64,000 nucleotides of DNA from Alphaproteobacteria bacterium LSUCC0396. GTDB lineage: Bacteria > Pseudomonadota > Alphaproteobacteria > Puniceispirillales > Puniceispirillaceae. The translations under genes and the position numbers were made by a program. Of this stretch, positions 8,613 through 29,499 are shown in pieces (position 1 is the first letter of the stretch; every line of letters begins with the position of its first letter). The stretch covers positions 806,001-870,000 of the forward strand of contig CP166131.1 of NCBI GenBank assembly GCA_041228345.1. The letters run 5' to 3'. The notes under the pieces were generated by a model that was given only the letters and a program-made list of their open reading frames with translations, did no database searches and was not told where the DNA came from.

Positions 8613-8881
8613 AGGAGCCCCCGCTAACTCCAAAAGTCGTTCGGCCTCATACGCCGCAAACCACCCTTTGGGGCCTGCCGACGTTAGGCTTATTTTTTTA
8701 AACCGACAATCCCTTTCACCCTAGACTACCCATAAACTGTGTCATCATATTACTCTTGAAATAAAATTAGCGGCTTCGTCCACATAGATGATTAATGTAA
8801 ATTGTGAGGTAAAACTAACACAGCATCATGTTTTCAAGCTGAACACAATCTCAGCCGTTGTTTATATCAGGATATAACAAG
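8613..8881. other. Spacer between divergent TauE permease genes
   Basis: An AT-rich stretch that must hold the promoters of the two divergent units. I see no convincing -35/-10 pair, operator or RNA. Its low-coordinate third is part of the open frame described at 8475-8612. Confidence 0.5.
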
Positions 8882-9658: not shown

Positions 9659-9670
9659 GGAGCAGCGGTA

Positions 9671-11305: not shown

Positions 11306-11320
11306 ACCGGGCGGTTAATC

Positions 11321-13076: not shown

Positions 13077-13080
13077 ATAA

Positions 13081-13743
13081 ATGTCAGTTCAAATTTTTAA
13101 AAATGACTTCGCCCCGCTATCTGCCGAGAAACTGATACAATGGGCCAGCATACCTCCAGCAATTGCCGGTGATGTGATGAACCGTCAGAATGTCATGGCG
13201 GGTCGCATCTCGCCGCTATCAACCGGAATGACAATCGTTGGACAGGCACGAACAGTCAGCGTTCTTGCAGGCGATAATGCCGCCCTTCATGAGGTGATTG
13301 GCCGCTTGAACCCAAAGGAGGTTCTGGTGATTGACGCAGCAAACTATAGCGATCGCGCGGTCTGGGGCGGAATTTTGAACACACGCGCGAAGTTGCGCGG
13401 CATAAACGGAGTTGTGCTTGATGGCGCGGCGAGAGATGCAGCTGAAATGCGAGCTATGGGGTTGCCAGTTTTTTTGAGTGCTTTATCGCCTGCAGGACCG
13501 CACAAAGGCTGGGGCGGCTCAATTGATGATCGCATCAGCTGTGGTGGAGTTGTTGTCATGCCAGGTGATATAATTCTCGGTGATGACGATGGCGTTACTG
13601 TTGTGCCACTAAACCGCGCCGATACCATACTTGAGGCGTCACTTGCGCGTATGGCATATGAGGCTGATATATTGGAAAAGTTAGCGTCAGGAGCCGATGT
13701 AAGCGGATTATTTCCATCACCAGAATTGGAAATAATATCTTAG
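13081..13743 (+). CDS. RraA-like / HMG-CHA aldolase family protein
   Basis: A 220-residue member of the RraA-like fold. The segment after WGG contains G, twenty residues, then RDAAE, matching the G-x20-R-D-x2-E/D signature of 4-hydroxy-4-methyl-2-oxoglutarate / 4-carboxy-4-hydroxy-2-oxoadipate aldolases. Those enzymes split hydroxylated oxo-diacids to pyruvate or oxaloacetate with Mg2+ and often decarboxylate oxaloacetate. Presence of the full motif argues for an enzyme rather than an RNase E inhibitor. It is translationally close to the cupin gene upstream. Confidence 0.83.
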   Translation: MSVQIFKNDFAPLSAEKLIQWASIPPAIAGDVMNRQNVMAGRISPLSTGMTIVGQARTVSVLAGDNAALHEVIGRLNPKEVLVIDAANYSDRAVWGGILNTRAKLRGINGVVLDGAARDAAEMRAMGLPVFLSALSPAGPHKGWGGSIDDRISCGGVVVMPGDIILGDDDGVTVVPLNRADTILEASLARMAYEADILEKLASGADVSGLFPSPELEIIS

Positions 13744-14077
13744 TTCAACTTTGCGCAATAAGATAGGTGAGCACATCTTATTACACGCTAATTTTGCAGA
13801 CTTAAACATATTTTGGGATATATAATTTCCATAGCCTCATGTGAATCACAATAAGACACCTGACTTTTCAATTTAATGAACCTAACGTCAATGCTTGAAA
13901 GACGGGCTTACATTATTTCATGTTAATCTCTGGAGCCAAACTTACGTTAGGGAGAGCACCAGAACCTATTTGAAAGGCAGGGACGAAACAAAAACCAACT
14001 TCGCACAGTTGTTATACAAAACTGCATGAAAAGCTCAGCTCTCCGCTAAACTTTAAAACATTCACCAGACACTGACC
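13744..14077. other. Convergent spacer between the aldolase and TRAP operon
   Basis: AT-rich; no gene seen. CCTAACGT (13881-13888) and ACGTTAGG (13944-13951) form an 8-bp inverted repeat 55 bases apart, too far apart and without a T-tract to be called a terminator. Confidence 0.4.
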
Positions 14078-15412
14078 CTAGCCGAACTTACCATAGACCA
14101 AATTCGGCAACCAAGTGACGACATCTGGGAAGAGCGCAACAAGCACAAGCACACCAATATAAGCCAGAAGAAACGGGAGAACCGCAACCGAAATCTTGTC
14201 AATTCCAAGGTTTGTTATTCGCGCAGCAACGAAAAGGTTTGCGCCAACAGGCGGCGTCAAAAAGCCCACCTCACAGGAAATTACCATCACAATGCCAAAT
14301 ACTATAGGATCAATACCGAGCGCCACCACGATAGGCAGCAGCAAAGGCGTAAGAAGAATAATCTGAGCAATTGACTCAAGGAACATGCCAGTAATTATCA
14401 AGATTACTGAGATAATCATCAGCAGCAAGAATGGGTTTTCCGTCACGCCACTTAAAGCTTCTCCAATCATGTCCGGAACAGACAAAAGGCTCATCAACTC
14501 CCCAAAAGCTTTGGCTGGACCTACAATAATCAAAACTGCACCTGAAATCATTGCGGTCACTTTTAGGCAGACCAGTATTTTTTTAACTGTTAGCTCTCTG
14601 TAAACAACACCACCAATCAGTAATGCATAAAAAACAGCTACAGACGCGGCTTCTGTGGGGGTAAAAGCCCCACTGTAGATACCCCCGAGAATTATGAATG
14701 GAGCAAGTATGGCCCATTTCCCATCAGCCATTGTCCTCCCAACCTCTGCCCAAGAGAAAATTGAACCATCACCAACATAATTTCGCCGTTTGGCGATTAT
14801 ATAGACCGTTAACATCAACAGAGCAGTTGCAAAGAAACCAGGTATGAAGCCAGCGAGAAATAAACGCGGAATGGATTGTTCGGCAACAATACCATAAATA
14901 ATCATTAGGTTACTTGGCGGAATGAGACTCCCAAGCGCACCGCCAGCTGCAGCAATTGCACCGCCCATCGCAGGATCCCAACGCTGCTTAATCATTGATG
15001 GTATCATAACAGCGCCGATAGCAGCGGTAGTCGCTGGGCCAGACCCAGACAAGGCTGCAAAAAAAGCACAGCCCAGAACTGCCACTAGACCCAAACTTCC
15101 CGTATAATTGCCGATCATTGATTGCGCCATATTCACAATACGGCGTGCCATACCTCCCTGCTCCATTAAGGAGCCCGCGAAAACAAATAATGGAACTGTT
15201 ACCAGCGGGAATGGCTCCACGCCAGTATACATGGACAGCACAACTTGAACCAAATTCAGGTCCATCATAAAATAACCAATCGCTGTACCTATAGCGACAG
15301 CTATTGGAATTGGAACTGCGAGAACAATCATTAAGATCATTGAGCCAAACATGATCAAAGCCTGCTGGCCTTCTGACAGGTCAAAAATAAAGTCCATCAA
15401 AAGGTCAAGCAT
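14078..15412 (-). CDS. dctM: TRAP transporter large permease, DctM
   Basis: A hydrophobic protein of about 444 residues with twelve or so membrane helices. It has family motifs such as GSGPATTAAIGAVMIPSM, GSLIPPSNLMIIYGI and LTPPVGANLFVAA. It is the sodium-driven translocator of a tripartite ATP-independent periplasmic transporter. The chosen ATG overlaps the dctQ stop by 8 bases and has AGGA upstream; an in-frame GTG seven codons earlier (15433) is possible. With dctQ and dctP it completes a three-gene TRAP operon for an organic acid; the substrate cannot be read. Confidence 0.9.
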   Translation of the reverse strand: MLDLLMDFIFDLSEGQQALIMFGSMILMIVLAVPIPIAVAIGTAIGYFMMDLNLVQVVLSMYTGVEPFPLVTVPLFVFAGSLMEQGGMARRIVNMAQSMIGNYTGSLGLVAVLGCAFFAALSGSGPATTAAIGAVMIPSMIKQRWDPAMGGAIAAAGGALGSLIPPSNLMIIYGIVAEQSIPRLFLAGFIPGFFATALLMLTVYIIAKRRNYVGDGSIFSWAEVGRTMADGKWAILAPFIILGGIYSGAFTPTEAASVAVFYALLIGGVVYRELTVKKILVCLKVTAMISGAVLIIVGPAKAFGELMSLLSVPDMIGEALSGVTENPFLLLMIISVILIITGMFLESIAQIILLTPLLLPIVVALGIDPIVFGIVMVISCEVGFLTPPVGANLFVAARITNLGIDKISVAVLPFLLAYIGVLVLVALFPDVVTWLPNLVYGKFG

Positions 15413-15914
15413 GAGGTAAATCCTCATCGTCACGGGGCTCTAGGATTGGCTCGCCATATTTTATCCAGCGATAATAAACCTGCGCCAACCTCAAAGTCAT
15501 CAGACCAAAGCCAAGGATAAGGCACATGTATGGCCATTTTTGATCAATATCTAACGCTGGTGAACGGTATTCGTCTTTCCAGAAAGACAGGTCCAACAAA
15601 ATGCTCTGATAGGTGAGAAAAATTCCAAAAAGAAACCATATAAGATCACTAAAAATTGTCATCCCAAGGGCCATTTTTGATGGCAACAATTGTACAAAAT
15701 TCATCACACGAATGTGCGCGCGCTCTCGAACTGCCCATGCGACTGAGATATAAACTGACCACAACATTGCATAAATTGCCAATTCGTCGGACCAAGAGGT
15801 CGGCATATTAAACAAGTAGCGCATGACGACCTGGAAAAACACCATCGAAGCCATGAACATCACAAGAATACCAGCTAAAATTTCTTCAAAATGTTTTTCT
15901 AAAAATTTCCACAT
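15405..15914 (-). CDS. dctQ: TRAP transporter small permease, DctQ
   Basis: About 169 residues with four predicted membrane helices. Family features include MRYLFNMPTSWSDELA and VRERAHIRVMNF, the conserved loop between helices 2 and 3. It anchors the large permease. The ATG at 15914 was preferred over a TTG at 15935 because AGTGAGA lies suitably upstream. Its stop overlaps the dctM start, indicating translational coupling. Confidence 0.88.
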   Translation of the reverse strand: MWKFLEKHFEEILAGILVMFMASMVFFQVVMRYLFNMPTSWSDELAIYAMLWSVYISVAWAVRERAHIRVMNFVQLLPSKMALGMTIFSDLIWFLFGIFLTYQSILLDLSFWKDEYRSPALDIDQKWPYMCLILGFGLMTLRLAQVYYRWIKYGEPILEPRDDEDLPHA

Positions 15915-15942
15915 TTTAGCAATCTCACTTGTCAAAATGTAA

Positions 15943-15972
15943 AAGCTGGCCCCCAGGTTTGGGAGCCAGCTT
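15943..15972 (-). terminator. Intercistronic hairpin between dctP and dctQ
   Basis: AAGCTGGC (15943-15950) pairs with GCCAGCTT (15965-15972). Three more G:C pairs lie inside, past one mismatch, around a 6-base loop. Read on the minus strand it is followed by TTTTAC. This is probably a partial terminator or mRNA-stabilising element that raises binding protein over permease, as often seen in TRAP operons. Confidence 0.65.
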
Positions 15973-15985
15973 GTAAGTTACTTAT

Positions 15986-16978
15986 TTACTTTGCCGCTGC
16001 ATAGATCTTATCCATGATTGCGGCATACTCGGGACCGCGCTCCTTGGCGAAAGCAGTGTGCACAGCCTTTGCCTTTTCAACCCAAGGGCCGATATCTGGC
16101 TGAGTAAACGTCACACCGGTCGCTTCCATCTTTTTTTGCACGATAGACATACCGTAGTTAGTGTGGAACCGTGATGCAGCAGTGGCAATCTTCGCCGCCA
16201 TTTGCATAGCTTCCATTTGACTGTCGTCAAGCTTTTTCATAAACGAGTCACTAACAAAAAATGGCGGAGCCAGGACAAAATGTCCAGTCATCGCTACATG
16301 CTTTGCAATGTCGTGGAACTTCTGTGAGTACTGAACGTCCAAAGGCAAGTCACCGCCATCAACAGTTCCAGTCTGCGTAGCGGTCAGCGCCTCTGACCAA
16401 GCAATTGGCACAGGGTCTGATCCAAACGCCTTATATGTATCAACCATCACAGTGTTTTTTGGCACCCGATACTTCATTTTTGCAAAGTCAGCTAGATTGT
16501 TGATAGGCATCTTAGTGTTGTAGATGTGACGGAATGAGAACAGTGGGATCGTGACAAGGTGAACACCAACTTCTTTTGGCATTCCACCCCAAATGTCTTG
16601 ACCAACCGGACCATCTGCAATCTTCACAGCATGATCATAGTTTTGGATCATATAGGGCAGCACCAACAAATCAATTTTTGGGTAAAATGGTCCGGCGTTG
16701 TTCTGCGCAATCATTGTCCCATCAAGAGTGCCAAGCTGAAGTTTCTTAAATTGCTCCTGCTCACTACCCATTTTATGGCAGCAGTGCACCTTCACACGTA
16801 CCGTGCCGCCTGAAAGTGTCTCGAAGCGCTCAGCAAACAAATGCATGAAAGTGCCATATGGGTGGCCTTCGTTAACCGAGTAACCAATGTTCATCGTTAC
16901 TTTTTTTGCGTTTGCAGGTCCTGCTACTAGCAGCAGAGCCGCAAACATTGAGCCAAGAACTGGCTTTAAAATTTTCAT
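15986..16978 (-). CDS. dctP: TRAP transporter solute-binding protein, DctP
   Basis: A 330-residue periplasmic protein with a Sec signal peptide ending ALLLVAGPANA. The DctP fold follows, including YSVNEGHPYGTFMHLFAERF and the carboxylate-binding arginine region MKYRVPKNTVMVDTYKAFG (about residues 165-183). GGGAGGAA precedes the ATG at 16978. It captures the substrate for DctQM. First gene of the operon, with a 227-bp upstream region before the third TauE gene. The ligand is an organic acid by family; nothing more specific is visible. Confidence 0.9.
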   Translation of the reverse strand: MKILKPVLGSMFAALLLVAGPANAKKVTMNIGYSVNEGHPYGTFMHLFAERFETLSGGTVRVKVHCCHKMGSEQEQFKKLQLGTLDGTMIAQNNAGPFYPKIDLLVLPYMIQNYDHAVKIADGPVGQDIWGGMPKEVGVHLVTIPLFSFRHIYNTKMPINNLADFAKMKYRVPKNTVMVDTYKAFGSDPVPIAWSEALTATQTGTVDGGDLPLDVQYSQKFHDIAKHVAMTGHFVLAPPFFVSDSFMKKLDDSQMEAMQMAAKIATAASRFHTNYGMSIVQKKMEATGVTFTQPDIGPWVEKAKAVHTAFAKERGPEYAAIMDKIYAAAK

Positions 16979-17205
16979 TTCTTCCTCCCTAAAATCAAAT
17001 CCAACAAGCCTATAACTTCACTAGGCAATTAACTTTGATTAAAAAAACGTTCCAAAATTTTAATGGTTTTGCAAGTTAATTGATCACTTATCTGCCGGTG
17101 TATGAAAAAGAATGTTCTTTAGTCTCAAAAATAATTAAATTTTATCGCCAAAAGAATTTGGTGTTAACGCCGCTGGACCAGATTGAACCCTGAATGCCTG
17201 AGCTT

Positions 17206-17952
17206 CTATGATAAGTTTGTGTAAATTGTTACAATGGCAATCAACGCAAGCGCAATGAGTGCCGCACGGCGAAAATGTTCGTTGCCCTGCTGACGAAAAA
17301 ACTGTGCGCCCAAATAATTTGACAACACATATATGGGGGCACTGATGATGCCAAACGTTAAAACGTCATTGCTGAACTGACCGTAAACAAGTAAAGCAGC
17401 AAAGTTAATCAATGACATTGAACTGAGTGCAATGACAATATTGCCGCGGGTAGTGCTTGCATTATCCGGTAATGACATTAACGCTGTCACTAGGGGAGGC
17501 CCGCCCATTCCAGCAGCGCCTTGTATAAATCCGCCTACCAACCCTGAACCTGACATAACAGACTTGCCGACAACACCCTTTATACGCCAGCCCGAAGCGA
17601 GAAGAGCCACGGTCATTAGTAGAGTAAAAGAAATGACCAGTTTCATTTTAGCGGGATTGACCTCAACTAAAACAGCGGTACCTAAGGGCACGGCAACAAT
17701 AATACCGATTAACATCGGCATAACAGTCTTTAAATTCGAATCACGAATACTAGTTGGCACGAGGTAAAGTATCGTTGGAATCTCAATTATAACGAGTATA
17801 GCAACAGCAACAACTGGCGGGAGTGTGAAACTAAGCGTTGGCACAATTACAAGTGCTGCGCCGAAACCGAGAAAGCCCCGCATGAACCCCCCAGCCACTA
17901 TGCTAAGCAGACAAATTAATAAATTTTCATAACCAAGCCCAAGAAAATCCAT
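17206..17952 (-). CDS. TauE/SafE family permease (third of three)
   Basis: A 248-residue membrane protein with the two half-signatures GGFMRGFLGFGAALVIVPTL (about residues 21-40) and GGFIQGAAGMGGPPLVTALM (about 139-158). Eight helices are likely. It lies 12 bp downstream of the EamA gene, probably co-transcribed, and upstream of the TRAP operon on the same strand. Cargo unknown. The ribosome-binding site is weak. Confidence 0.85.
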   Translation of the reverse strand: MDFLGLGYENLLICLLSIVAGGFMRGFLGFGAALVIVPTLSFTLPPVVAVAILVIIEIPTILYLVPTSIRDSNLKTVMPMLIGIIVAVPLGTAVLVEVNPAKMKLVISFTLLMTVALLASGWRIKGVVGKSVMSGSGLVGGFIQGAAGMGGPPLVTALMSLPDNASTTRGNIVIALSSMSLINFAALLVYGQFSNDVLTFGIISAPIYVLSNYLGAQFFRQQGNEHFRRAALIALALIAIVTIYTNLS

Positions 17953-17964
17953 TTTTCTAATTTA

Positions 17965-18855
17965 TCAACCCTTAGTTCGCTGTTTACAAATTTCATACAT
18001 CGCCAAGCCAAATACAGATAAAAAGATTAGCCCCCCGCCAAAAAGGGTACCGTGACTTGCGAACTCATCAAAGAAGATCCAAACCCATATTGGTCCAAGC
18101 GCAAATTCAAGAAGCATAATAAGAGGGATTTCAGCAGCCTTTAAAACTTTTGTAGACAGCACTAGAAGGGTTTGCCCACAACCTTGCAAGACGCCGCCCC
18201 AAATAAAACATAATGCTATGTCGCGTATTTCTGGTACAGCGCTCCACTGACTAAAGATCAATCCAACGACCATGCTAAAGAGCCCAGTAAGTAATAGCAC
18301 TGGCAACATTTCTACATGCCTATTTCGCCGAAGGGTGACAGCAAAGCAGGAAAAACAAAAGGCTGTCATCAAAGCAAAGACTACGCCCACCAATCCCTCT
18401 GAAGTAACGTCATTAGCTATAATAGAGAAGATACCAATGCTCGCAGTGGCCATCGCGAGCTGGGTGGCTCTGTCAATGCGCTCCCCTATCACAAAAAATG
18501 CAATTAGGGCCGTAATAAAGGGCGCGAGGGCAATGGTAAATGTTGTATTGGCAACTGTAGTGTTTGAGAAAGCAAAAACATAAAAGGTCTGAGCTCCAGT
18601 AAAAAACAGGGCGCCAAGTATACCTTGCCTTCCAATGCTCCAGATTGCCGAAAAAACCCGCTGCCTGTAAAGAGCAGTCAAGACGACTAACATCACAAAT
18701 GAAAGTGCGAGCCCTCGAAAAAAAACAACTCCAAACGGATCAATATTGTCTAAGCTGCGAAAAATAAGGCCAGCAGTGCTCACAATGGTTGCTGATGCAA
18801 TCATCATTTTAATTGCTGAGTGCCGTTTTACAACTGAAGAAAGAAAAGTCACCAT
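17965..18855 (-). CDS. EamA/DMT-superfamily transporter
   Basis: About 296 residues with ten predicted helices in two EamA halves. Features include NTTVANTTFTIALAPFITAL near the end of the first half and GVLQGCGQTLLVLSTKVLKA in the second. DMT proteins usually export metabolites or amino acids. The ATG at 18855 was chosen; a TTG at 18867 is also open. It is followed by a TauE permease after 12 bp. Confidence 0.83.
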   Translation of the reverse strand: MVTFLSSVVKRHSAIKMMIASATIVSTAGLIFRSLDNIDPFGVVFFRGLALSFVMLVVLTALYRQRVFSAIWSIGRQGILGALFFTGAQTFYVFAFSNTTVANTTFTIALAPFITALIAFFVIGERIDRATQLAMATASIGIFSIIANDVTSEGLVGVVFALMTAFCFSCFAVTLRRNRHVEMLPVLLLTGLFSMVVGLIFSQWSAVPEIRDIALCFIWGGVLQGCGQTLLVLSTKVLKAAEIPLIMLLEFALGPIWVWIFFDEFASHGTLFGGGLIFLSVFGLAMYEICKQRTKG

Positions 18856-18929
18856 CGATAAGTCCAAAGGCCTGCAAGTTTTGGGAGAACCGGGTAAAAG
18901 CTAAATTTTGACTTAACAGACAAAGCGGC

Positions 18930-19415
18930 TTAAAAACGGCATTCAGAGTACTGGCTGGCTTGACATGCAGTCGCCTGCGCGACAATTTCATCAAAAGTTC
19001 GCGCTGGCAATTCTGCAGCAATTGCCTGAACCATAAACGCAGCGTTGGGGTCAAATTCAGCTGATAACAAGAACCAATACAGCGCCTTTCTTAGACTTTT
19101 TTCGACACCCATTCCTTCGTGGTAGCTGTTTGCAAGAGCCGTAAAAGCAAACGGATAACCCTGCTTCGCCGATTGCCTAAAAAGCTCAACAGCTCGCAGT
19201 TGGTCTTGGGCCACCCCCTGGCCAGTCTGGTAGAGCAAACCAAGACTTGCCTGTGCAACTTTGTCACCAGATTCTGCCAATGGTACCCATAGTTTGACTG
19301 CCTCATCTGGTTTGCCCTCTGAGAGTTTTACAAAGCCAGAATTTAAATCATCTGCAACGGCTGAGGACATATAAAACGCAACCATGGCGATCAATATTAT
19401 CTTTAGCCACTGCAA
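18930..19415 (-). CDS. Secreted Sel1-repeat protein
   Basis: About 161 residues. The start is taken as the TTG at 19415 because TTTAGGAGAG lies just upstream; it yields a clean signal peptide (QWLKIILIAMVAFYMSSAVA). A longer frame from 19448 would bury that signal. At least two Sel1 (TPR-like) repeats follow: VAQASLGLLYQTGQGVAQD and FAFTALANSYHEGMGVEKS. They form a protein-binding scaffold, probably periplasmic. The C-terminus has two cysteines. The partner is unknown. Confidence 0.7.
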   Translation of the reverse strand: MQWLKIILIAMVAFYMSSAVADDLNSGFVKLSEGKPDEAVKLWVPLAESGDKVAQASLGLLYQTGQGVAQDQLRAVELFRQSAKQGYPFAFTALANSYHEGMGVEKSLRKALYWFLLSAEFDPNAAFMVQAIAAELPARTFDEIVAQATACQASQYSECRF

Positions 19416-19548
19416 ATTTTTCTCTCCTAAATATGAGCTTTTGGGCAAATCAAATTGGCAAACATTAAATTTTAGCCATATGATCTTAAAACATGTAGGC
19501 TATGAGCGACTTTTTAAAAGTTAAACATCAATCATGTGAGGCGCGTCA

Positions 19549-19713
19549 ATGATCATTTATCGATCAGCAAAAGTGATTGAAGAACTATTCTTGTCAGCCA
19601 TCCAGAAAATCACTGCACCCAAATCCGTAAAAGATACAATTTACGGAACCTTTCTTGCCCTTGCAGCTTTGTTCTGCCTGTTGTTTGCATTTGAGCAGTT
19701 GATTGGCCGTTGA
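19549..19713 (+). CDS. Possible small single-span membrane protein
   Basis: A 54-codon frame from ATG 19549 to TGA 19711-19713. GTGAGG lies seven bases before the ATG. The C-terminal part GTFLALAALFCLLFAFEQLI is a good transmembrane helix after an amphipathic, basic N-terminus. It is the only plus-strand frame in a short gap between two minus-strand genes. No family recognised. Confidence 0.4.
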   Translation: MIIYRSAKVIEELFLSAIQKITAPKSVKDTIYGTFLALAALFCLLFAFEQLIGR

Positions 19714-19743
19714 CATGTTGATTGATTAGCTTTTAATGCGCAG

Positions 19744-20631
19744 TCACTGGGAGCCCATGAAATATTCAAGAATAGCTGTTTGATCAAGGGTCCCCATCCC
19801 AGCTTTTTCTGCACTGATGAACTCTTCTCGAGCCACTCTTCCAAATTGAACTTTGTGGTTTGCAATTTCTGCAAGCTCTATTGCCATATTCAAATCCTTA
19901 ACCGCCATAAAAATCGGAAAGTCTGGCGTCAGGTCGCCTGCAAGAACTTTTTTAGGATAATTTGTATTGAGTTGACCAAGCCCAGCCGCCGTTGAACTCA
20001 TCAATTTTGCCATAGCCCTTACATCAAGTCCCGCAGCCTTTGCTAGAGAAAGCGTTTCTCCAGTCAATGCGTTATTGACCATAGCCATGTAATTATTGAC
20101 AAGTTTTGCTTTCAAGCCGCAACCTACTGGACCAACATGAAGAATTGTATCGCCAACGGCGTTGAAAACACCATCAAGCGCTGCAACGTCATCTGCCTCT
20201 CCACCCGCCATCACGAGAAGGTTGCCGGTGATTGCCTCCCGAGGTGTCCGGCCAACAGGTGCATCAACAAATCTGTGACCCCGGTTGGCAACACGCTTTG
20301 CTGTTTCCATCAATTGTGGGTATGAGCCTGTCGACATATCCACAATAAGGCTGTTTGGTGCACAGGTTTCCAAAACGCCACCCTTATCAAACAACACTGC
20401 ATCAACAACATCACTGTTTGGCAGTATCATCATAATTACATTACGTTGATCAGCCGCCTCACAGGGATTAGTCGATCCGGCCAAGGCGACGCCCTTAAAT
20501 CCGTCGACAACATTCTGCTGAATGTCGCACACAGCAACGTCAAAGCCCTCTCGAATAATGTTTTTTGCCATTGGAGCTCCCATAATTCCGAGCCCAATAA
20601 AAAGGATTTTTTGTTCCACAGTTCCCAACAC
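19744..20631 (-). CDS. 3-hydroxyisobutyrate dehydrogenase-family (beta-HAD) protein, copy 1
   Basis: A 295-residue NAD(P)-binding beta-hydroxyacid dehydrogenase. The Rossmann motif is FIGLGIMGAPMAKNI, the substrate-binding motif is FVDAPVGRTPREA, and the catalytic lysine lies in GCGLKAKLVNNYM (KxxNN, about residues 170-182). It oxidises a beta-hydroxy acid to its semialdehyde, or reduces one. The start (GTG 20631, TTG 20628 or GTG 20619) is uncertain. It is downstream of the SDR gene and resembles the second HIBADH at 24967-25854. Substrate unknown. Confidence 0.85.
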   Translation of the reverse strand: MLGTVEQKILFIGLGIMGAPMAKNIIREGFDVAVCDIQQNVVDGFKGVALAGSTNPCEAADQRNVIMMILPNSDVVDAVLFDKGGVLETCAPNSLIVDMSTGSYPQLMETAKRVANRGHRFVDAPVGRTPREAITGNLLVMAGGEADDVAALDGVFNAVGDTILHVGPVGCGLKAKLVNNYMAMVNNALTGETLSLAKAAGLDVRAMAKLMSSTAAGLGQLNTNYPKKVLAGDLTPDFPIFMAVKDLNMAIELAEIANHKVQFGRVAREEFISAEKAGMGTLDQTAILEYFMGSQ

Positions 20632-20698
20632 TTCCTAAAGCTACACTCACATAAGAATTTGATTAAAAGAAAGTTTGATCAATACAGATACATATTGT

Positions 20699-21475
20699 CT
20701 ACTTAGGTAACTCTCCATATGGAAGATATCCGCCGGCAAGTGTTATGCCACAATCAGCAACAGTGACAGAACCTGTCATGGCGCTCGATAAATCAGATAA
20801 CAAAAACAAAGCAATATTGGCAATCTCTGACGGCAAGGCCATTCTGCCCAGCGGCGTCATGTTGAGAATTGGTGATAAATCCCGTCCCGCTGCTTCCTGT
20901 TTTCTGATAAATGGGGTGTCAACCCAACCCGGACAGATTGTGTTGACACGGATATTTTTTTTGCTCCATTGAACAGCCATGGCCTGGGTAAGATTCTTTA
21001 TTGCTGCTTTACCAGCGCCATATCCTAGTACAGGCCCAGGTCTCAAGGCCAACACTGATGACATTGTAACTATAGAACCTCCACCTGTGGCTAGCATTCG
21101 CCTGCCAACTAATTTGCAAGTAACGAATGTGCCGTTGATATGATTTTCAAGCACTCTTTTAAAATTTTCTAGTGGCATTTCTTCTATTGGTTCTCGGGTT
21201 GGCATTATGCCCGCGGAGGTCACACAACCGTTAAAGGCAGGCATGCTTGTAGAGAGCTTCTCCAGCGCAGCATCTATTGATCCTTCAGACTCAACATCAC
21301 CAACCGCAAAGTGAGCGCGACGGCCAAGCGCTGTGCATAACTCTTGCGCCGCATCACCATTAATATCAATGATACCAACCGTAGCCCCTTCTTTATGCGC
21401 AGCAGTGCAAATAGCGGCTCCAATACCGCTGGCACCACCTGTAACTACGATCGATTTTTGTTGAAGTCTAATCAT
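20699..21475 (-). CDS. Short-chain dehydrogenase/reductase (SDR)
   Basis: A 258-residue classical SDR. The cofactor motif TGGASGIG lies near residue 14, the acidic residue after beta-2 (GIIDINGD) suggests NAD(H), and the catalytic Ser and Tyr-x3-Lys lie in MSSVLALRPG and YGAGKAA. The ATG at 21475 is preferred over an adjoining TTG. It interconverts an alcohol and a ketone. It is divergent from the Baeyer-Villiger monooxygenase and could supply that enzyme's ketone; this link is inference. Confidence 0.88.
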   Translation of the reverse strand: MIRLQQKSIVVTGGASGIGAAICTAAHKEGATVGIIDINGDAAQELCTALGRRAHFAVGDVESEGSIDAALEKLSTSMPAFNGCVTSAGIMPTREPIEEMPLENFKRVLENHINGTFVTCKLVGRRMLATGGGSIVTMSSVLALRPGPVLGYGAGKAAIKNLTQAMAVQWSKKNIRVNTICPGWVDTPFIRKQEAAGRDLSPILNMTPLGRMALPSEIANIALFLLSDLSSAMTGSVTVADCGITLAGGYLPYGELPK

Positions 21476-21671
21476 CAAACCACAATCCTTTTCAAAGAAT
21501 TTTTATCGCAAGGAGAAACGATTACACCATCACGGACCTACAACTGCAAATTTTTCATATTTGAACAATTCGCATGAGTTGGTAACTTTGCATACAACCG
21601 TAGTACAGCTAATCGCACTGAGTACAATTTCTAGTTGAATTGAAAAAAATAATTTCTTGAAAGTTGGTACA

Positions 21672-23285
21672 ATGAAACATGACAATCACACCCTTGACGC
21701 TATCGTTGTTGGTGCAGGGTTTTCAGGCCTATATCAGCTGTATTGCTTGCGTGAAAAACTAAATCATAAAGTTAAGGTTCTTGAGGCTGGAGGTGATGTA
21801 GGGGGCACCTGGTATTGGAACCGCTACCCCGGTGCGCGTTGTGACTCTGAAAGTCATACTTACTGCTACTATTTTGACAAGCATTTGCTTGAAGAATGGT
21901 CATGGTCTGAACGGTATCCTGGACAAGCAGAAATCTTGCGCTACCTAAATTTTTGCGCCCAAAAACTGGACCTCAAAAAAGACATTCGTTTTAATGAGCG
22001 TGTGATAAAAGCCGAGTGGGACGCTAATTCACAACTTTGGCACGTAAAAACACAAACTGGTCAGACTTTCATAGCGCGTTTTTTAATTACTGCCGTTGGG
22101 TGTCTTTCTTCAGCAAATATGCCAGATATTGATGGCCTTTCTGATTTTAAAGGTGAAATTTATCACACTGGTCAATGGCCCCATGACACAGTTGATTTTG
22201 AAAAAAAGACAATCGTCGTTATTGGTACAGGCTCAACCGGAATTCAGGCAATTCCTGAAATTGCGAAGTATGCGAAAAAACTTTACGTGCTTCAGAGAAC
22301 GCCTAATTATAGCGTACCCGCGCGTAATAGGCCGCTATCCAAAGATTTCCATTCGGCATTCATCGAAGACATTGATTCTTGGAGATCAAAAATGCTTAAG
22401 TCACGCCATGGACACCCATGGATAGCACCGGATCGTCAGGTCCGGAAAACCTCACCAGAGGAACGCTACAGGATTATGGAATCTGCATGGGAACATGGTG
22501 GGCTCAGTTTTCGTGAAAGTTTTGACGATGTACTCCTAGATGAAGAGTCAAACAACATAATGTCTGAATTTATCAGGCAGAAAATCATGAGTACCGTCCG
22601 CAATGTCGAAACAGCGAAAAAATTATTACCGAAAGATCACCCGTTTGGTACCAAGCGGCCACCAATCGATACTAATTATTTTGAGACATACAACCTTGAA
22701 CATGTGCATCTTATTGACGTCAGGCAAAACCCTATAGCTTCATGCTCCTCTGCAGGAATAATATTTACCGATGACACAAAAATAGAAGCGGATATGATAG
22801 TCTTTGCGACAGGCTTTGACGCGATGACCGGAGCACTGCAAAAAATGAACCTTAAAGGGAGGGACGGCCTAAAACTAGAGGAAGCGTGGCTTACTGGCCC
22901 ACAAACATATCTAGGTCTAGCTGTCCCAAAATTCCCAAACATGTTCACCATAACTGGGCCTGGCAGCCCATCAGTATTAACAAACATGCCACGCGCAATT
23001 GAACAGCATGTCGATTGGATTACAGATTTGCTATGCCACATGGTTCAGAGAGGTTACTCCAAGGTTGAAGCCAGCGAGGCAGCTGCCAACGAATGGACCG
23101 AACATGTTACCGATGTAGCCAACAAAACGCTTTTACCGAAAGCTAATCATTCCTGGTACCTTGGGGCAAACGTTCCCGGAAAACCACGGGTCTTTATGCC
23201 ATACGTTTTTGGATTAAATCATTATCGGAACCACTGTGATTCCATCGCGGCAAGCGGATACCAAGGCTTTCTAATCACTGAGTAA
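21672..23285 (+). CDS. Baeyer-Villiger-type flavin monooxygenase
   Basis: About 537 residues. Features are an N-terminal FAD motif (VVGAGFSGLYQLYCLRE), the GGTWYWNRYPGARCDSES block, the Baeyer-Villiger fingerprint FKGEIYHTGQWP (FxGxxxHxxxWP), and a second Rossmann motif VIGTGSTGIQAIPEIA for NADPH. This combination marks cyclohexanone/phenylacetone-type monooxygenases, which insert oxygen next to a ketone to give an ester or lactone. The start ATG at 21672 is preferred over a TTG at 21657. It is followed by a GMC oxidoreductase after 37 bp, suggesting one catabolic unit. Confidence 0.9.
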   Translation: MKHDNHTLDAIVVGAGFSGLYQLYCLREKLNHKVKVLEAGGDVGGTWYWNRYPGARCDSESHTYCYYFDKHLLEEWSWSERYPGQAEILRYLNFCAQKLDLKKDIRFNERVIKAEWDANSQLWHVKTQTGQTFIARFLITAVGCLSSANMPDIDGLSDFKGEIYHTGQWPHDTVDFEKKTIVVIGTGSTGIQAIPEIAKYAKKLYVLQRTPNYSVPARNRPLSKDFHSAFIEDIDSWRSKMLKSRHGHPWIAPDRQVRKTSPEERYRIMESAWEHGGLSFRESFDDVLLDEESNNIMSEFIRQKIMSTVRNVETAKKLLPKDHPFGTKRPPIDTNYFETYNLEHVHLIDVRQNPIASCSSAGIIFTDDTKIEADMIVFATGFDAMTGALQKMNLKGRDGLKLEEAWLTGPQTYLGLAVPKFPNMFTITGPGSPSVLTNMPRAIEQHVDWITDLLCHMVQRGYSKVEASEAAANEWTEHVTDVANKTLLPKANHSWYLGANVPGKPRVFMPYVFGLNHYRNHCDSIAASGYQGFLITE

Positions 23286-23322
23286 ATTTACCCAAGCCGG
23301 TCAGAAAACGGAGTGGTGAGTT

Positions 23323-24945
23323 ATGACTGAAAACGTTGAAATTTTTGACTACATAATAATAGGCGCAGGCTCGGCAGGGTGCATTCTAGCAAACCGCCTC
23401 AGCGCATGCGGTAAGTATAGTGTCTGCGTTATTGAAGCAGGCCCAAAAGACTGGCACCCTATGCTTCATATACCAGCTGGTTTTGTCAAAACTTTAGTTA
23501 ACCCAAAATTCAACTGGATGTATTCGAGCGAACCAAGTGCGGGCACCAATGGCCGCACCATACCAGCTCCCCGAGGTAAAGTGCTTGGTGGATCAAGCTC
23601 AATTAATGGAATGGGGTTCAACAGAGGCCAGAAAATGGACTTTGATGTCTGGGCACAAAAAGGCAATACAGGTTGGTCCTATGACGATATTTTGCCTTAT
23701 TTCCGAAAATTTGAGAGTTATCAGTCCCAGGATGATCAGTCCTATCGCGGCACCGATGGTGAAATGACCATCAGTGATCTCGATTGGCGAGACCCTCTCT
23801 GTGAGGCCTATATCAAAGGAGCAGAGAGTCTAGGCATTTCAAGGAATGCAGATTACAACGGTGCGACACAAGAGGGGATTTCATATCTTCAACGTACCGT
23901 ACGTGGGCGGTTTCGCATGAGTGCTGCCCGAGCTTTTTTAAACCCAGCTAAAAGACGTCCTAATTTGCGAGTGGTTACAAACGCCCACGTTACCCGCATT
24001 CTTTTACAAGGAAAGCGCGCAACTGGCGTCACATTCAAACTCGTTAAAAATCAAGAAATAGAGCGGCAAATTGATGCAGGCCGAGAACTGATTTTATGTG
24101 CCGGCGCTATTAATTCTCCGCACCTTTTACAGCTATCAGGAATTGGCGACGCGGATCATTTAAAAGAGATTGGCTGCGAGGTACGTCATGACCTGCCAGC
24201 TGTGGGAACCAATTTTCAGGACCATTACGCGACCCGGTTGACGTACCGGGTTCGCGGAGTTAACACAATCAACAATCGCGCGCATGGACTGCCATTGATT
24301 GCTGAGATTGCAAAATACTGTTTTGGTAAAAAGTCGATATTAAACCTTGGCCCAACAGCCGTTTTTTGTTTCCTTAAGTCAAATGAGAGTCTGAGCTCCC
24401 CTGATATCCAGATCAACTTTACCCCGGGAACGCACCAACGTGGCATGCAGTCTACGTTGGAGAAACAGGCCGGATTTACCATGGCGACCTGGCAACACCG
24501 TCCCGAGAGTCACGGATATATCAAGGCAAAAAGCTCAAACCCATTTGAGCACCCAGAAATTCAGCCAAATTACCTGGCCGCCGAAACTGACCAAAACGTA
24601 ATTTTGGCGGCAATCAAAATATGTCGTAAGCTCGCTCAAACTGATGCCTTGAGACCTTTTATTGTAGAAGAGACTTTTCCAGGTGTTGCCTGCCAAAATG
24701 ATGAGGAATTGTTGAATTCAGCGCGTGAAATCGGTCAATCAATATACCATTTGATGGGAACCTGCCGTATGGGTACCAGAAATGACAAAACTGCCGTTGT
24801 GGATGCAGACCTAAAGGTTCATGGCATTGAAAATATTCGGGTAATTGACGCATCTATAATGCCAACTATGGTATCGGCAAACCTAAACGCAGCGGTAATG
24901 ATGATTGCTGAAAAGGGGGCAGACATGGTTCTTGGGAGCAATTGA
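23323..24945 (+). CDS. GMC-family FAD-dependent oxidoreductase, copy 2
   Basis: A 540-residue homologue of the GMC enzyme at 9671-11305. It shares IPAGFVKTLVNPKFNWMY and [19 protein letters not shown] (signature 1), GAINSPHLLQLSGIG (signature 2) and the active-site region IYHLMGTCRMG. In this copy the HPVST of copy 1 reads HLMGT. It oxidises an alcohol. Located downstream of the Baeyer-Villiger gene, it might act on the alcohol released from the ester or lactone product. A GGAG lies about 12 bases before the ATG. Confidence 0.9.
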   Translation: MTENVEIFDYIIIGAGSAGCILANRLSACGKYSVCVIEAGPKDWHPMLHIPAGFVKTLVNPKFNWMYSSEPSAGTNGRTIPAPRGKVLGGSSSINGMGFNRGQKMDFDVWAQKGNTGWSYDDILPYFRKFESYQSQDDQSYRGTDGEMTISDLDWRDPLCEAYIKGAESLGISRNADYNGATQEGISYLQRTVRGRFRMSAARAFLNPAKRRPNLRVVTNAHVTRILLQGKRATGVTFKLVKNQEIERQIDAGRELILCAGAINSPHLLQLSGIGDADHLKEIGCEVRHDLPAVGTNFQDHYATRLTYRVRGVNTINNRAHGLPLIAEIAKYCFGKKSILNLGPTAVFCFLKSNESLSSPDIQINFTPGTHQRGMQSTLEKQAGFTMATWQHRPESHGYIKAKSSNPFEHPEIQPNYLAAETDQNVILAAIKICRKLAQTDALRPFIVEETFPGVACQNDEELLNSAREIGQSIYHLMGTCRMGTRNDKTAVVDADLKVHGIENIRVIDASIMPTMVSANLNAAVMMIAEKGADMVLGSN

Positions 24946-24966
24946 TAGTCTTTTAATCAAAAAAAA

Positions 24967-25854
24967 CTATTCCGATATTTTTGAGAGGTTTTTTAAAGTT
25001 CTGTATATTCCTGTTGTCCAATCCTCCTCCCCACGTCCCGCTGCACTTGCAATATTGTATACCTCACGGGCAACAGAACCTGTGGATAACGGTACTTTGG
25101 AGGATGCTCCAGCCGTTAGGGCTAGACCAATGTCCTTACGCGCCAGATCCAACATAAAAGCTGGCAAGGGATTGTCGCATAAGGCTTTCTCTGGCCAAGC
25201 CGTGGTGATGTGCCCAAGCCCTGCCGGAGTCTTAGAGATCACTTCCACCATTACGTCTTGACTAACACCCGACTTAAGGCCTAGTGCTAACCCTTCTGCC
25301 GTAACAAGGTTAGATACGGCTGAAATATAGTTGTTAACTAACTTTACGACAGAACCTGAACCTAGTTCACCACAGTATGTTATAGCCTCTCCCATGCATT
25401 CCAGGAATGGCACCACACGATCAATATCTTGTTTTTTGCCTCCAACCATGAAAGTTGACTTCCCATTGATTGCATGCGCCGATGTTCTGCCTACAGGAGC
25501 ATCAACCATAGAAAACCCCCGATCGACAAGGCGTTTGCCAATCTGACGAGTTTCGTCTGGCAGTATCGTGCTCATATCAACAAATATTGCATTACCAGAC
25601 ATTCCATCCGCAATTCCATCTGGACCGAAAACAACCTTTTCTACTATTGATCCAATCGGCAAAATGGCAAAAATCGCCTCGCAGCCTTGTGCGGCTTCTT
25701 TTGGTGACTTCGCACCTTTTGCGCCTTGCTTTTCAAGGGCAGCTACAGCTTCTTGCGAAACGTCATAGACCGTAACGTGGTGACCATTTTTTATAAGATG
25801 AGGGCACATTGCGCTACCCATCTGCCCTAGGCCTACAAATCCAATTTTTGCCAT
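24967..25854 (-). CDS. 3-hydroxyisobutyrate dehydrogenase-family protein, copy 2
   Basis: A 295-residue beta-hydroxyacid dehydrogenase with FVGLGQMGSAMCPHLIKNG, MVDAPVGRTSAHAI and GSGSVVKLVNNYI (catalytic Lys in KxxNN). It is the same length as copy 1 at 19744-20631 and shares the unusual APVGRT substrate loop. AAAGGGCG precedes the ATG. It converges on the GMC gene with a 21-bp gap. Likely oxidises a hydroxy acid in the same pathway. Confidence 0.87.
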   Translation of the reverse strand: MAKIGFVGLGQMGSAMCPHLIKNGHHVTVYDVSQEAVAALEKQGAKGAKSPKEAAQGCEAIFAILPIGSIVEKVVFGPDGIADGMSGNAIFVDMSTILPDETRQIGKRLVDRGFSMVDAPVGRTSAHAINGKSTFMVGGKKQDIDRVVPFLECMGEAITYCGELGSGSVVKLVNNYISAVSNLVTAEGLALGLKSGVSQDVMVEVISKTPAGLGHITTAWPEKALCDNPLPAFMLDLARKDIGLALTAGASSKVPLSTGSVAREVYNIASAAGRGEEDWTTGIYRTLKNLSKISE

Positions 25855-26008
25855 ATGCGCGCCCTTTCCAAGCGACTATATAGAAAATCTAATAGTGATA
25901 CTTCTAAGAATATTACGCAATAATGCGACACTCACTGTTAGCCTAGACCAGATTTTTTTTGAGGAACCCGACAAAACAAAAGACTGTCCTCTTCAGCACA
26001 ACGCCAAA

Positions 26009-28414
26009 TTATCCACGAATCACAGCACCGCAGTTTTTGCTGGCAGCGGCAATCACAGCATCACTGATCGCGTCGATTTCAGCCTCACTCAAAGTCGCCT
26101 TTTGCGGCGTCAATGTGATTGTAACTGCCAATGATTTATGACCTTCGGCAATCGTCCTTCCCTGATAAACATCGAACAGCTGAACATCACTTACCAATGG
26201 TCCCGCTGCCGATTTCACCGCGCGAAGCAGCTGGCTTGCGGCCACATCTTCGGCAAGGATAAAGGCAAAATCCCGACTGACCGGCTGGAATGGCGACATT
26301 TTGAGATAGGTACGCGCCGGCCCTCTTGATTTGGCGACCGGCACGTCTTCCAAGAATAATTCAAACCCCACAAGTGTGCTGCGCAAACCGAAATGTGCGG
26401 CAATTTGTGGGTGCAATTCACCAAATTGTGCAAGCAGGTTACGCCCTTGCAACAACCGGCCAGAACGACCCGGATGGAAATAATCAGGCCCACCTGCCTC
26501 AACCTGAAGGCTGCCGCGCCGCACGCCCAGAACCGCCAATGCCGCCTCGGCATCTGCTTTAGCATCAAATAAATCAACCATCCGGCGACTACCATGCCAT
26601 TCACGTGGTGCCATCGCCCCATGCCGGATTGCCGCCACTGCAATGCGCTGCTGATCTGGCTCATCACCAAGGAAAACCGGACCAATTTCAAACAGTGCAA
26701 CGTCGGCCTCGCCGCGATCCTGATTACGCGCCGCCGCTGACAAAAGGTTGGGCAGCGCAGACGGTCGCATGAATGACAACTCCGCGCTAATCGGGTTGAC
26801 CAGTTTCAGACTGGCATCACCACCGCCAAAAATGACCGCTTCTTTTTCTGCAAGAAACGAAAAGGTAACCGCCTCGGTCAAGCCGCGTTCAGCCAGCGCA
26901 CGACGTAAGCGTAACGGGCGCACCTGTTTGGCATTGACCGCGGGCTGTGCGACCACATGTTCGCGGGGCAGATGCGTCATTGGCAAATGATCAAACCCGA
27001 ATATACGGCTCACCTCTTCGACCAGATCGGCCGCACCGTCGATATCACCGCGCCATGCGGGAGGGCTGACCTGCCATCCACCGGCATCATCACGAACTGT
27101 AAAGCCAAGGCTTTCCAGAATTGCCTGCTGGCGGGAGGGCGGTACTTGCATACCGGTCAACCGCTCAACCTTATCAGCGGCAAGGAAAATCTCACGCCGC
27201 CATTTAGCACCGTCGCCAGCGGTCACGACATGGCTTGCCTGTCCGCCGCAAATCTCGAGAATCATGCGCGCAACATAACCTGATGCCCATTCAGGCGAGG
27301 TTACATCTAGACCGCGCTCAAACCGAAAGCGTGCGTCGGAATGAATATTCAGCTTGCGACCGGTTGTGGCAACCGCAATCTGATCAAAGATTGCAATCTC
27401 TAAAAACATCTTATCGGTGGCATCGCTGACCCCCGAGCGTTCACCGCCCATGATGCCAGCAAGATCATCCGGCCCGTTCGCATCGCCGATGACGAGCATG
27501 TCCTCATTAAGCTCATAGGTCTTTTCATTCAAGGCCGTCATGGTTTGGCCAGATTTGGCCGGGCCGATAATCAACTTACCACCATCAATCTTATCGATGT
27601 CATAGGCGTGTAACGGGCGGCCAAGATCAATCATAATATAGTTGGTGATATCCACCAGGGCGCTAATCGGGCGCTGTCCAATTGCGGTTAGCCGGTTTGC
27701 CATCCATGCGGGGCTGGCACCATTTTTAAGGCCTGTAAAAGCCCGACCTGAAACCAGCGGGCAGAGATGCGCCTGCTCCGGTTTTAAGTTCAGTTCCCAT
27801 GATATCGGGCTATCAAAACTGCCGTCCAGCGGGCTGGTGTCGAGTGCTTTCAGCGTGCCATAACCTGCTGCCGCCAGATCACGCGCAACGCCACGAACGC
27901 CAAGACAATCAGCGCGGTTCGGGGTAATCGCGATTTCAATGATCGGATCATCGAGACCGGCATAGGTGGCAAAAGCCATGCCAACAGGTGCATCAGCAGC
28001 TAGGTCAATAATGCCGTCATGCTCGTCAGAAAGCTTCATTTCGCGTTCAGAACATAACATGCCATTCGACAGCTCACCGCGAATCTCGCCAGTTTTCAGG
28101 GTCAGATCAATTCCCGGAACATACGCCCCAACTGGTGCAAAAACACCCTTCATGCCAGCGCGGGCATTTGGCGCGCCGCAGACAACTTGCACGGGCTCAC
28201 CCGCACCAATATTGACCATGCAAACCCGTAATTTATCTGCATTTGGATGCTGTTCTGCCGAAATCACCTCGGCAATAACGAACGGCGACAATATCTCGGC
28301 ACGGTCGACAAGGGATTCAACTTCCAGCCCAAGCATGGGCAAAACGTCAATAATCTCGGCCAATGGGCGATCTGTCTCGAGATGCGAGAAAAGCCAGTCA
28401 CGGGTGAATTTCAT
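26009..28414 (-). CDS. pheT: Phenylalanyl-tRNA synthetase beta subunit
   Basis: An 801-residue protein of normal length. An N-terminal EMAP-like tRNA-binding domain (about residues 40-150, with AEQHPNADKLRVC) leads to B3/B4 editing and B5 domains. A C-terminal FDX-ACB anticodon-binding domain (about 705-800, SPFQPVSRDFAFI) ends the protein. With PheS it forms the alpha2-beta2 enzyme charging tRNA-Phe. Its ATG shares a base with the pheS stop (TAATG), so translation is coupled. Confidence 0.98.
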   Translation of the reverse strand: MKFTRDWLFSHLETDRPLAEIIDVLPMLGLEVESLVDRAEILSPFVIAEVISAEQHPNADKLRVCMVNIGAGEPVQVVCGAPNARAGMKGVFAPVGAYVPGIDLTLKTGEIRGELSNGMLCSEREMKLSDEHDGIIDLAADAPVGMAFATYAGLDDPIIEIAITPNRADCLGVRGVARDLAAAGYGTLKALDTSPLDGSFDSPISWELNLKPEQAHLCPLVSGRAFTGLKNGASPAWMANRLTAIGQRPISALVDITNYIMIDLGRPLHAYDIDKIDGGKLIIGPAKSGQTMTALNEKTYELNEDMLVIGDANGPDDLAGIMGGERSGVSDATDKMFLEIAIFDQIAVATTGRKLNIHSDARFRFERGLDVTSPEWASGYVARMILEICGGQASHVVTAGDGAKWRREIFLAADKVERLTGMQVPPSRQQAILESLGFTVRDDAGGWQVSPPAWRGDIDGAADLVEEVSRIFGFDHLPMTHLPREHVVAQPAVNAKQVRPLRLRRALAERGLTEAVTFSFLAEKEAVIFGGGDASLKLVNPISAELSFMRPSALPNLLSAAARNQDRGEADVALFEIGPVFLGDEPDQQRIAVAAIRHGAMAPREWHGSRRMVDLFDAKADAEAALAVLGVRRGSLQVEAGGPDYFHPGRSGRLLQGRNLLAQFGELHPQIAAHFGLRSTLVGFELFLEDVPVAKSRGPARTYLKMSPFQPVSRDFAFILAEDVAASQLLRAVKSAAGPLVSDVQLFDVYQGRTIAEGHKSLAVTITLTPQKATLSEAEIDAISDAVIAAASKNCGAVIRG

Positions 28415-29499
28415 TAGACAGCCCCCCCAGCAAGACCGGCATGGATAGACGGCGCATCAAACGGCAGAAATCCGTAATGGCGCATCCAGCGCAAATCGCT
28501 GTCATAGAAAGTGCGCAAATCAGGAATGCCATATTTCAACATGGCAATACGCTCGATCCCCATACCAAAGGCAAAGCCCTGATATTTTTCCGGATCATAA
28601 CCACAATTTGCCAACACCCGCGGGTTGACCATGCCAGACCCCAGAATTTCCAGCCAATCATCACCCGCACCGATTTTCAGCGCGCCATTTTCACGGGTAC
28701 AGCCAATATCAACTTCGGCTGACGGTTCGGTAAAAGGGAAATAGCTTGGCCGGAATCTTACCGGCAAATCATCAACGCCAAAAAAGGCGCGGCAGAAATC
28801 AATCAGACACCCTTTAAGATGCCCCATATGAATACCGTCGCCGATCACCAGACCCTCGCATTGATGAAACATCGGCGAATGGGTTGCGTCATGGTCAGAC
28901 CGGTAAGTACGGCCCGGCACAATGATGCGGATTGGCGGCTCGTTCGCCTCCATCGTGCGGATTTGTACTGGCGATGTGTGGGTGCGCAGCACTTTGCGCT
29001 TACCATCGGCATCAGCTGGCAGATAAAATGTGTCATGCTCCTGACGGGCGGGATGTTCAGGCGGAATATTCAGCGCGGTGAAATTATAGTAATCGGACTC
29101 GATATCGGGGCCTTCGGCGACCTGAAACCCCATCTCGGCAAAGATTGCAATCACTTCTTCGATTGTACGCGACAATGGATGAAGGCGGGCCTCGGTTTCC
29201 GGCCGGCTTGGCAAGCTGACATCAATCCGTTCCGCCGCCAGCCTTGCATTTAATGCGGCCGCGGCCAATGTGGTCTGCTTGGCGTCAATCGCCGCAGCAA
29301 TCATATCCTTGACCTTGTTCAGTGCCTGTCCGGCCTGTTTGCGTGCCTCGGCATCCATGCCGCCAAGGTCGCGCATCATCACTGAAATCCGCCCCTTTTT
29401 GCCAAGCGCATCAATGCGGATCGCCTCCAGCGCATCAAGATTGTCGGCGGCACCAATGGCGTCGATAATTTCTGTGGATACAGCATCAAGGCTTTGCAT
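28414..29499 (-). CDS. pheS: Phenylalanyl-tRNA synthetase alpha subunit
   Basis: A 361-residue class II synthetase catalytic subunit. It has an N-terminal coiled coil (about residues 1-90) and the class II motifs in the region of [19 protein letters not shown] and [14 protein letters not shown]. It activates phenylalanine and pairs with PheT. It follows the rplT gene across a 165-bp leader containing a large hairpin with a U-tract, so expression may be set by attenuation. Confidence 0.98.

Follow-up and report, generated by a model that had tools for sequence, protein, structure and literature searches.

SAR116 is a common clade of the surface ocean, and the dissolved compounds that it takes up are incompletely known. 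Which compound, if a single one, is consumed by the oxidative genes grouped in a 64,000-nucleotide stretch of the genome of Alphaproteobacteria bacterium LSUCC0396 (genome G000, of SAR116 type, a single contig CP166131.1 of 2,592,803 bases, positions 806001-870000)? This whole stretch is hereafter called the window, and all the block coordinates are given in its numbering. The first-pass annotation had pointed out, between 19744 and 25854, a cluster coding for a short-chain dehydrogenase (SDR), a Baeyer-Villiger monooxygenase (BVMO), a GMC oxidoreductase and two enzymes labelled 3-hydroxyisobutyrate dehydrogenases (HIBADH; hibA and hibB). The open reading frame (ORF) list and profile searches recovered all five genes at these positions, with open frames and the announced families. 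Four of them proved to lie in a larger block, which also codes for an importer and which, being kept and exchanged as one piece, probably serves the consumption of one dissolved organic acid. The complete reading, i.e. a horizontally exchanged cassette consuming one organic anion via an alcohol-ketone-ester route, is in our opinion evenly balanced between true and false.

Conservation and exchange of the gene block

The constant unit extends from 14078 to 24945, from dctM to gmc, and is larger than the five genes first noted. In this unit dctM, dctQ, dctP, tauE, eamA, sel1, hibA and the SDR gene are oriented leftward, and bvmo and gmc rightward. This order was read whole in eight loci (the window, L003, L005, L006, L047, L048, L049 and L050); L004 starts inside tauE and is not among them. 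Since L004, L005 and L006 are mutually 97.8-99.8% identical, they count as about one locus. The contig of L005 is titled Planktomarina and, at 97.8-99.8% identity to SAR116 records where they overlap, is probably a misbinned SAR116 contig. The initial delimitation thus held for hibA, SDR, BVMO and GMC; it had left out the importer and TauE, with which the unit continues leftward to 14078, and had included hibB (24967..25854, minus strand), which belongs to the variable flank beyond gmc. Indeed, hibB is present in two of the four loci with a readable gmc-pheT stretch (the window and L003, not L049 and L050).

The distribution of the block was followed in 61 SAR116-family genomes, many of them incomplete, in which the BVMO and dctP were the proteins searched individually. 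At E 1e-60 the BVMO was found in 11 genomes and, in agreement with the conserved unit proposed earlier, it is flanked by homologues of hibA, SDR and GMC in the same order in eight of them (G000 and L008-L014); they do not flank it in the three others (G012, G014 and G025). At the same threshold dctP was detected in eight genomes (G000, G007, G008, G017, G021, G023, G026 and G027), which are exactly those with hibA, SDR and GMC beside the BVMO, and in none of the 61 genomes was dctP seen without the enzyme set. Fisher's test of this co-occurrence gives 3.4e-10 over the 61 genomes and 0.0012 over the 28 that are at least 90% complete (BVMO in 4, dctP in 3), both values ignoring relatedness and serving as a guide only. 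Such a grouping goes beyond chance. The block of G023 is divided over two contigs, one half on each. G019, labelled as the same species, yielded neither BVMO nor dctP in the family searches, so that the block is accessory.

The mobility of the block was revealed by comparison with L003. DNA identity is 97.9% over 13849-24937, with 89-96% in the last kilobase of the tract, against 87.8% in the right flank (24932-28817) and 82.5% in the left one (11615-13770), where it nevertheless reaches about 99% from about 13250 on. The high-identity tract starts there, inside an accessory RraA-like aldolase-family gene located at the left edge (13081..13743, plus strand; Pfam RraA-like E 6.7e-39). Synonymous divergence (dS) stays within 0.00-0.06 for the genes dctM to bvmo and is higher beyond them, at 0.20 for gmc and at 0.58 and 0.76 for pheT and pheS (the latter partial), which the block adjoins. 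These jumps of identity and dS at the block edges show a recent exchange of the block, as one piece, between species. Its ten core genes are under purifying selection, with nonsynonymous to synonymous ratios (dN/dS) of 0.005-0.163 against L005 and L006, the lowest being those of dctP (0.005-0.006). Between the window and L047-L050, the importer proteins are 86-93% identical whereas the four enzymes are 58-72% identical, so that all these loci may well import one and the same compound. Against L005 and L006, dS is 0.95-1.70 in the rest of the core but 0.44 for hibA and 0.60-0.63 for the SDR gene, which would fit a separate exchange of this pair.

A sample of 385 genomes of the class was also searched; it contains just three other genomes of the SAR116 family and so has little bearing on SAR116. 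There hibA (E 1e-70) was found in G000 and G438 (44% identity, other context), and dctP (E 1e-90) in G000 and G423 (63%); the stretch of 18.4 kb examined in G423 codes for DctPQM and has no BVMO, GMC or hibA match. With two genomes of 385 for each gene, a trait of the whole class is unsupported. The BVMO type itself is widespread, with matches in 95 of the 385 genomes at E 1e-120. The plasmid collection gave no hibA match at E 1e-60 and no dctP match at E 1e-80, and the BVMO was matched by 28 plasmids at E 1e-150, none with an identity of at least 60%.

To the right of gmc, L003, L004 and L005 share an enolase-superfamily gene followed by a further GMC gene, which the contig end truncates in the last two. 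L003 continues with a fatty-acid-hydroxylase gene and hibB (16363-17394 and 17776-18660 of that locus), each split in two ORFs by decay or assembly error. In L047 and L048 gmc is followed by enolase, alpha/beta hydrolase, EamA, second GMC and aldehyde dehydrogenase (ALDH) genes, and in L049 and L050 directly by pheT. To the left of the block, 5341-13743 codes for a DUF3604 protein, two further permeases of the TauE type, the RraA-like protein and another GMC (9671-11305); in L051 the same run ends in RraA-BVMO-ALDH-pheT.

The importer, the oxidative enzymes and the predicted route

DctM, DctQ and DctP are encoded together and constitute a tripartite ATP-independent periplasmic (TRAP) transporter, DctPQM. 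The large permease DctM (14078..15433, minus strand) matches Pfam DctM at E 3.1e-109 and TIGR00786 with 384.8 bits for a cut-off of 268.45; the small permease DctQ (15405..15935, minus strand; Pfam DctQ E 1.8e-31) overlaps it by 29 bases, and the substrate-binding protein DctP is encoded at 15986..16978 on the same strand (Pfam DctP E 1.5e-56). The nearest solved chain of DctP is 4pdd (143 bits), which we take to be an erythronate-bound entry, and the isethionate receptor 8t9t gives 67 bits. Both arginine positions of the anion site common to SiaP and 4pdd are kept. As paired arginines hold a carboxylate or a sulfonate in TRAP receptors, according to the part of the source consulted (PMC11668362), the ligand of DctP is likely an anion. 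Since the importer and the four oxidative enzymes are kept together and exchanged as a piece, knowing what DctP alone binds would identify the substrate of the whole pathway; should it be an alicyclic acid or a sulfonate, named genes would be tied to a large marine carbon or sulfur pool. A terminator-like stem of 13 pairs lies between dctP and dctQ (15943-15972, minus strand) and would fit a binding protein made in excess of the permease. No argument was drawn from the promoter scan, which gave 30 sites where shuffled sequences averaged 21.4, or from the terminator scan (19 against 14.8).

The core also includes, on the minus strand, a TauE/SafE-type permease (17206..17952; Pfam TauE E 3.7e-24), an EamA/DMT-type transporter (17965..18867; Pfam EamA E 6.2e-16) and a Sel1-repeat protein (18930..19448; Pfam Sel1 E 2.9e-15). 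The SDR (20699..21478, minus strand; Pfam adh_short_C2 E 3.1e-56) contains YGAGK at residue 153, and its best solved match is dihydroanticapsin 7-dehydrogenase (5itv, 137 bits). The GMC protein (23323..24945, plus strand) has both Pfam GMC domains, N and C, and is choline-dehydrogenase-like (PRK02106, 559 bits, under the cut-off of 605); its best solved match is a chloramphenicol-inactivating oxidoreductase. These solved matches of the SDR and GMC do not fix a substrate.

The HIBADH label was right as to the family. For hibA (19744..20631, minus strand) and hibB, however, YihU (6sm7) is the best solved match, with 201.7 and 254.5 bits, respectively, which places both in the YihU-like branch of the beta-hydroxyacid dehydrogenases. 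The GRT motif of YihU (residues 122-124) and its Lys171 are matched in both proteins, which are the only carriers of GRT among the 11 enzymes of this type detected in G000; the nine others have SGG (6), SGL, CYG or AGG at this position, and for this reason ordinary 3-hydroxyisobutyrate dehydrogenases were set aside. GRT is kept in all eight hibA orthologues. Structure models of hibA and DctP (mean pLDDT 54.4 and 32.1, from alignments of 5 and 4 rows) were not used.

The BVMO (21657..23285, plus strand) is most similar to phenylacetone monooxygenase 1w4x (577 bits, residues 10-541) and then to a steroid monooxygenase (525 bits). Type I BVMOs are defined by two Rossmann GxGxxG motifs and the FxGxxxHxxxW fingerprint, and the window protein has the former at residues 19 and 190 and the latter at residue 164. 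The arginine of its GTKR segment aligns with that of phenylacetone monooxygenase, presumably an active-site residue, and GTKRPP and GPGSPSVLTNMPR are invariant in the eight cluster BVMOs. By motifs and similarity the protein is probably a type I BVMO, for which a ketone-to-ester activity is predicted.

From these families we infer which reactions take place, in what order and direction, and that a single substrate is common to all the enzymes; the order alcohol, ketone, ester put forward by the first-pass annotation fits them. The TRAP transporter would take in an acid carrying, or processed to carry, a secondary alcohol, which the SDR would oxidise to a ketone. The BVMO would insert oxygen beside the carbonyl and yield an ester or lactone. 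This product would open spontaneously or be cleaved by a hydrolase whose gene lies elsewhere, and the GMC protein and a YihU-like dehydrogenase would oxidise the hydroxy compounds thus set free. We give roughly equal odds for and against the passage via a ketone and an ester.

Several observations weigh against this route. Two of the eight cluster BVMOs, those of L047 and L048, have Phe or Tyr instead of the fingerprint histidine. The BVMO is also found in other contexts (L051, L052, L054 and plasmids), and in a 47-row tree the BVMOs of L051 and L054, which have no cluster, fall among the cluster BVMOs, inside a 10-row group with a support of 94/98. A single clade of cluster BVMOs was consequently rejected, and the link between BVMO and block is not a strict one. 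Occurrence of single genes in unrelated contexts, which had been named beforehand as damaging to the proposal, was thus observed for the BVMO but not, in the 61 family genomes, for dctP. Furthermore, no serine-type esterase or lactonase was detected among the ORFs of the window block. The alpha/beta hydrolase of L047 and L048 has an Asp nucleophile (GHDWG), epoxide-hydrolase relatives and no serine esterase motif, and was not accepted as the missing lactonase.

The absence of a lactonase or esterase stated in the first annotation was thus correct for the window block, but relatives carry a hydrolase and an ALDH at this place, and orthologues of these lie elsewhere in the genome. That of the L047 hydrolase (80% identity) is at 1,883,821 in G000, away from the block. 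ALDH, not found in the window block, is present in L047 and L048 and directly after the BVMO of L051, and has orthologues in G000 at 1,198,431 (76%) and 1,129,615 (75%). The enolase orthologue (58%) is at 1,202,378, in an enolase-GMC-ALDH set (1.198-1.203 Mb) homologous to the accessory genes of L003 and L047. This set is located beside TRAP-type genes and two proteins that look sulfatase-like by eye (L079, 1189000-1208900 of G000); G438 (L082) has a similar group with the hibA homologue at 44%.

The neighbours of more distant BVMO relatives were read at plasmid loci, six in number, of which five were usable since L103 has no annotation (49-57% identity to the BVMO). A GDSAG serine hydrolase is the next listed gene after the BVMO in three of the five (Roseomonas, Pararhizobium and Natronorubrum); it is 5.7 kb off in Novosphingobium, and none was seen at the Methylobacterium currus locus. 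In Roseomonas, Pararhizobium and M. currus, the vicinity of the BVMO includes SDR genes and ABC importers of the branched-chain type, and in Pararhizobium a GMC gene as well. G438, which belongs to the same order as G000, has a CocE-like hydrolase next to its BVMO. By analogy, these adjacent hydrolases favour ester formation by the BVMO lineage, the plasmid relatives at 49-57% possibly differing in substrate.

Alternative explanations

The block could instead serve the catabolism of a sugar acid or hydroxyacid: the TRAP transporter would import an aldonic or similar acid, the SDR, GMC and dehydrogenases would oxidise its hydroxyls, an enolase-superfamily dehydratase would act in some relatives, and the BVMO would be a side enzyme or act on a late keto intermediate. 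This is consistent with the enolase-superfamily and second GMC genes beside the core in L003, L004, L005, L047 and L048, with the RraA-like gene at the left edge, with the enolase-GMC-ALDH set elsewhere in G000 and with 4pdd as the nearest solved chain of DctP. As enolase and second GMC are absent from the window block and also from L049 and L050, which have just the core, and as the constant BVMO is left unexplained, we regard it as unlikely.

It could also be supposed that there is no pathway, the site on the pheT side being a hot spot which gathers unrelated oxidoreductases and transporters travelling together. The variable content right of gmc, the RraA-BVMO-ALDH genes of L051 at the same site, and the base composition agree with this view: the block is AT-rich, with a GC fraction of 0.440-0.457 over 14-26 kb against 0.470-0.540 on its left and 0.508-0.555 on its right (2-kb steps). 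However, L047 and L048 keep the ten-gene order despite the divergence of their enzymes and dctP is not seen apart from the enzyme set in the 61 family genomes, so that this explanation is decidedly unlikely.

Organosulfonate catabolism is not favoured, and we consider it quite improbable. A small hydroxysulfonate would be imported by the TRAP transporter, the YihU-like enzymes would act on the alcohol or aldehyde, the SDR would form a sulfo-ketone, the BVMO would release sulfite and TauE would export it. The YihU likeness of hibA and hibB argues for this scheme: the arginine of GRT, which they share with YihU, is one that we take to bind the sulfonate, and hibB matches YihU from K171 to S178 apart from two conservative changes. 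TRAP receptors for sulfonates exist, according to the consulted part of the same source (PMC11668362), and TauE is in the core. In addition, G000 codes for a true sulfoacetaldehyde acetyltransferase Xsc (1774237-1775967, minus strand; 940.5 bits for a cut-off of 676.4), which indicates that sulfonates are handled elsewhere in the genome. On the other hand, hibB (315.8 bits) and hibA (248.8 bits) miss the curated cut-off of 348 for 3-sulfolactaldehyde (SLA) reductase (PRK15461), no PF04295 (SuyB-type) gene was found in the genome by family search, and DctP matches the isethionate receptor far more weakly than 4pdd. The name TauE designates a broad family, with three such genes within the window, and is no proof of sulfite export. 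In a desulfonation variant of the route, which we hold to be highly improbable, oxygen insertion by the BVMO on the sulfonate side of the sulfo-ketone would give an unstable ester, from which sulfite would leave without lyase or esterase; if true, it would explain together the absent hydrolase, TauE and the YihU-like dehydrogenases. We know of no desulfonation by a BVMO.

Finally, the least probable explanation is that the BVMO is a detoxifying or sulfide- or amine-oxidising flavoprotein and not a ketone oxygenase, since, for all the promiscuity of class B monooxygenases and the fingerprint histidine lost in two of eight, its nearest solved relatives are ketone monooxygenases and its match to the trimethylamine monooxygenase profile is weak (47.9 bits for a cut-off of 675).

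Comparison with known systems

Our preferred reading remains a catabolic cassette with ketone and ester intermediates. The first-pass annotation knew of no named pathway with this set of enzymes and, in agreement, no description of a TRAP-SDR-BVMO-GMC set was found in the open-licence papers searched. The parts are of known kinds, and it is their combination with an importer of their own, as an exchanged SAR116 cassette, that was not found described. In its consulted part, a 2025 paper on the SAR116 pangenome covers the sulfonate monooxygenases SsuD and MsmA.

YihU is an SLA reductase and DhpA a DHPS dehydrogenase, as given in the parts consulted (PMC9594981, PMC6278857). Both are of the same beta-hydroxyacid dehydrogenase family as hibA and hibB, which have GRT and the catalytic lysine as in YihU; in contrast, hibA and hibB stay under the curated cut-off, and the known partner enzymes of those pathways are absent from the block. 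The pdc progesterone cluster of Caenibius tardaugens contains a BVMO with a luciferase-like monooxygenase and regulators (PMC12239570). It resembles the block in that a BVMO opens the route by which a carbon source is used, a steroid monooxygenase being also the second-nearest solved relative of the block BVMO, and differs by having no TRAP or SDR-BVMO-GMC set in the part of the description consulted. For marine SAR202 bacteria, the action of an SDR and then a BVMO on alicyclic organic matter has been proposed (PMC5395668, consulted in part). The idea of an alcohol-ketone-lactone sequence, with choline-dehydrogenase-like enzymes, is common to both; the SAR202 enzymes belong to FMN-type, type II paralogue families, whereas in the block a single type I enzyme, of the FAD kind, belongs to a fixed cassette that includes an importer.

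The Roseomonas and Pararhizobium plasmid loci have an ABC and not a TRAP importer, a serine hydrolase and no hibA at E 1e-60; like the block, they associate a BVMO (57% and 54% identical, respectively) with SDR genes and an importer, and in Pararhizobium with GMC as well.

In the chn and cpn clusters for cyclohexanol and cyclopentanol, a secondary-alcohol dehydrogenase is encoded together with a type I BVMO. The block likewise joins an alcohol dehydrogenase and a type I BVMO in one cluster, with further alcohol oxidation and, in L047 and L048, an alpha/beta hydrolase and an ALDH. Unlike these clusters, it has a TRAP importer, GMC and YihU-like enzymes, and in the window neither serine lactonase or esterase nor ALDH, the Asp-type hydrolase being restricted to L047 and L048. 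The breakdown of cyclohexanol and that of acetone are both alcohol-ketone-ester routes; the block would work alike, with another importer and other alcohol oxidases.

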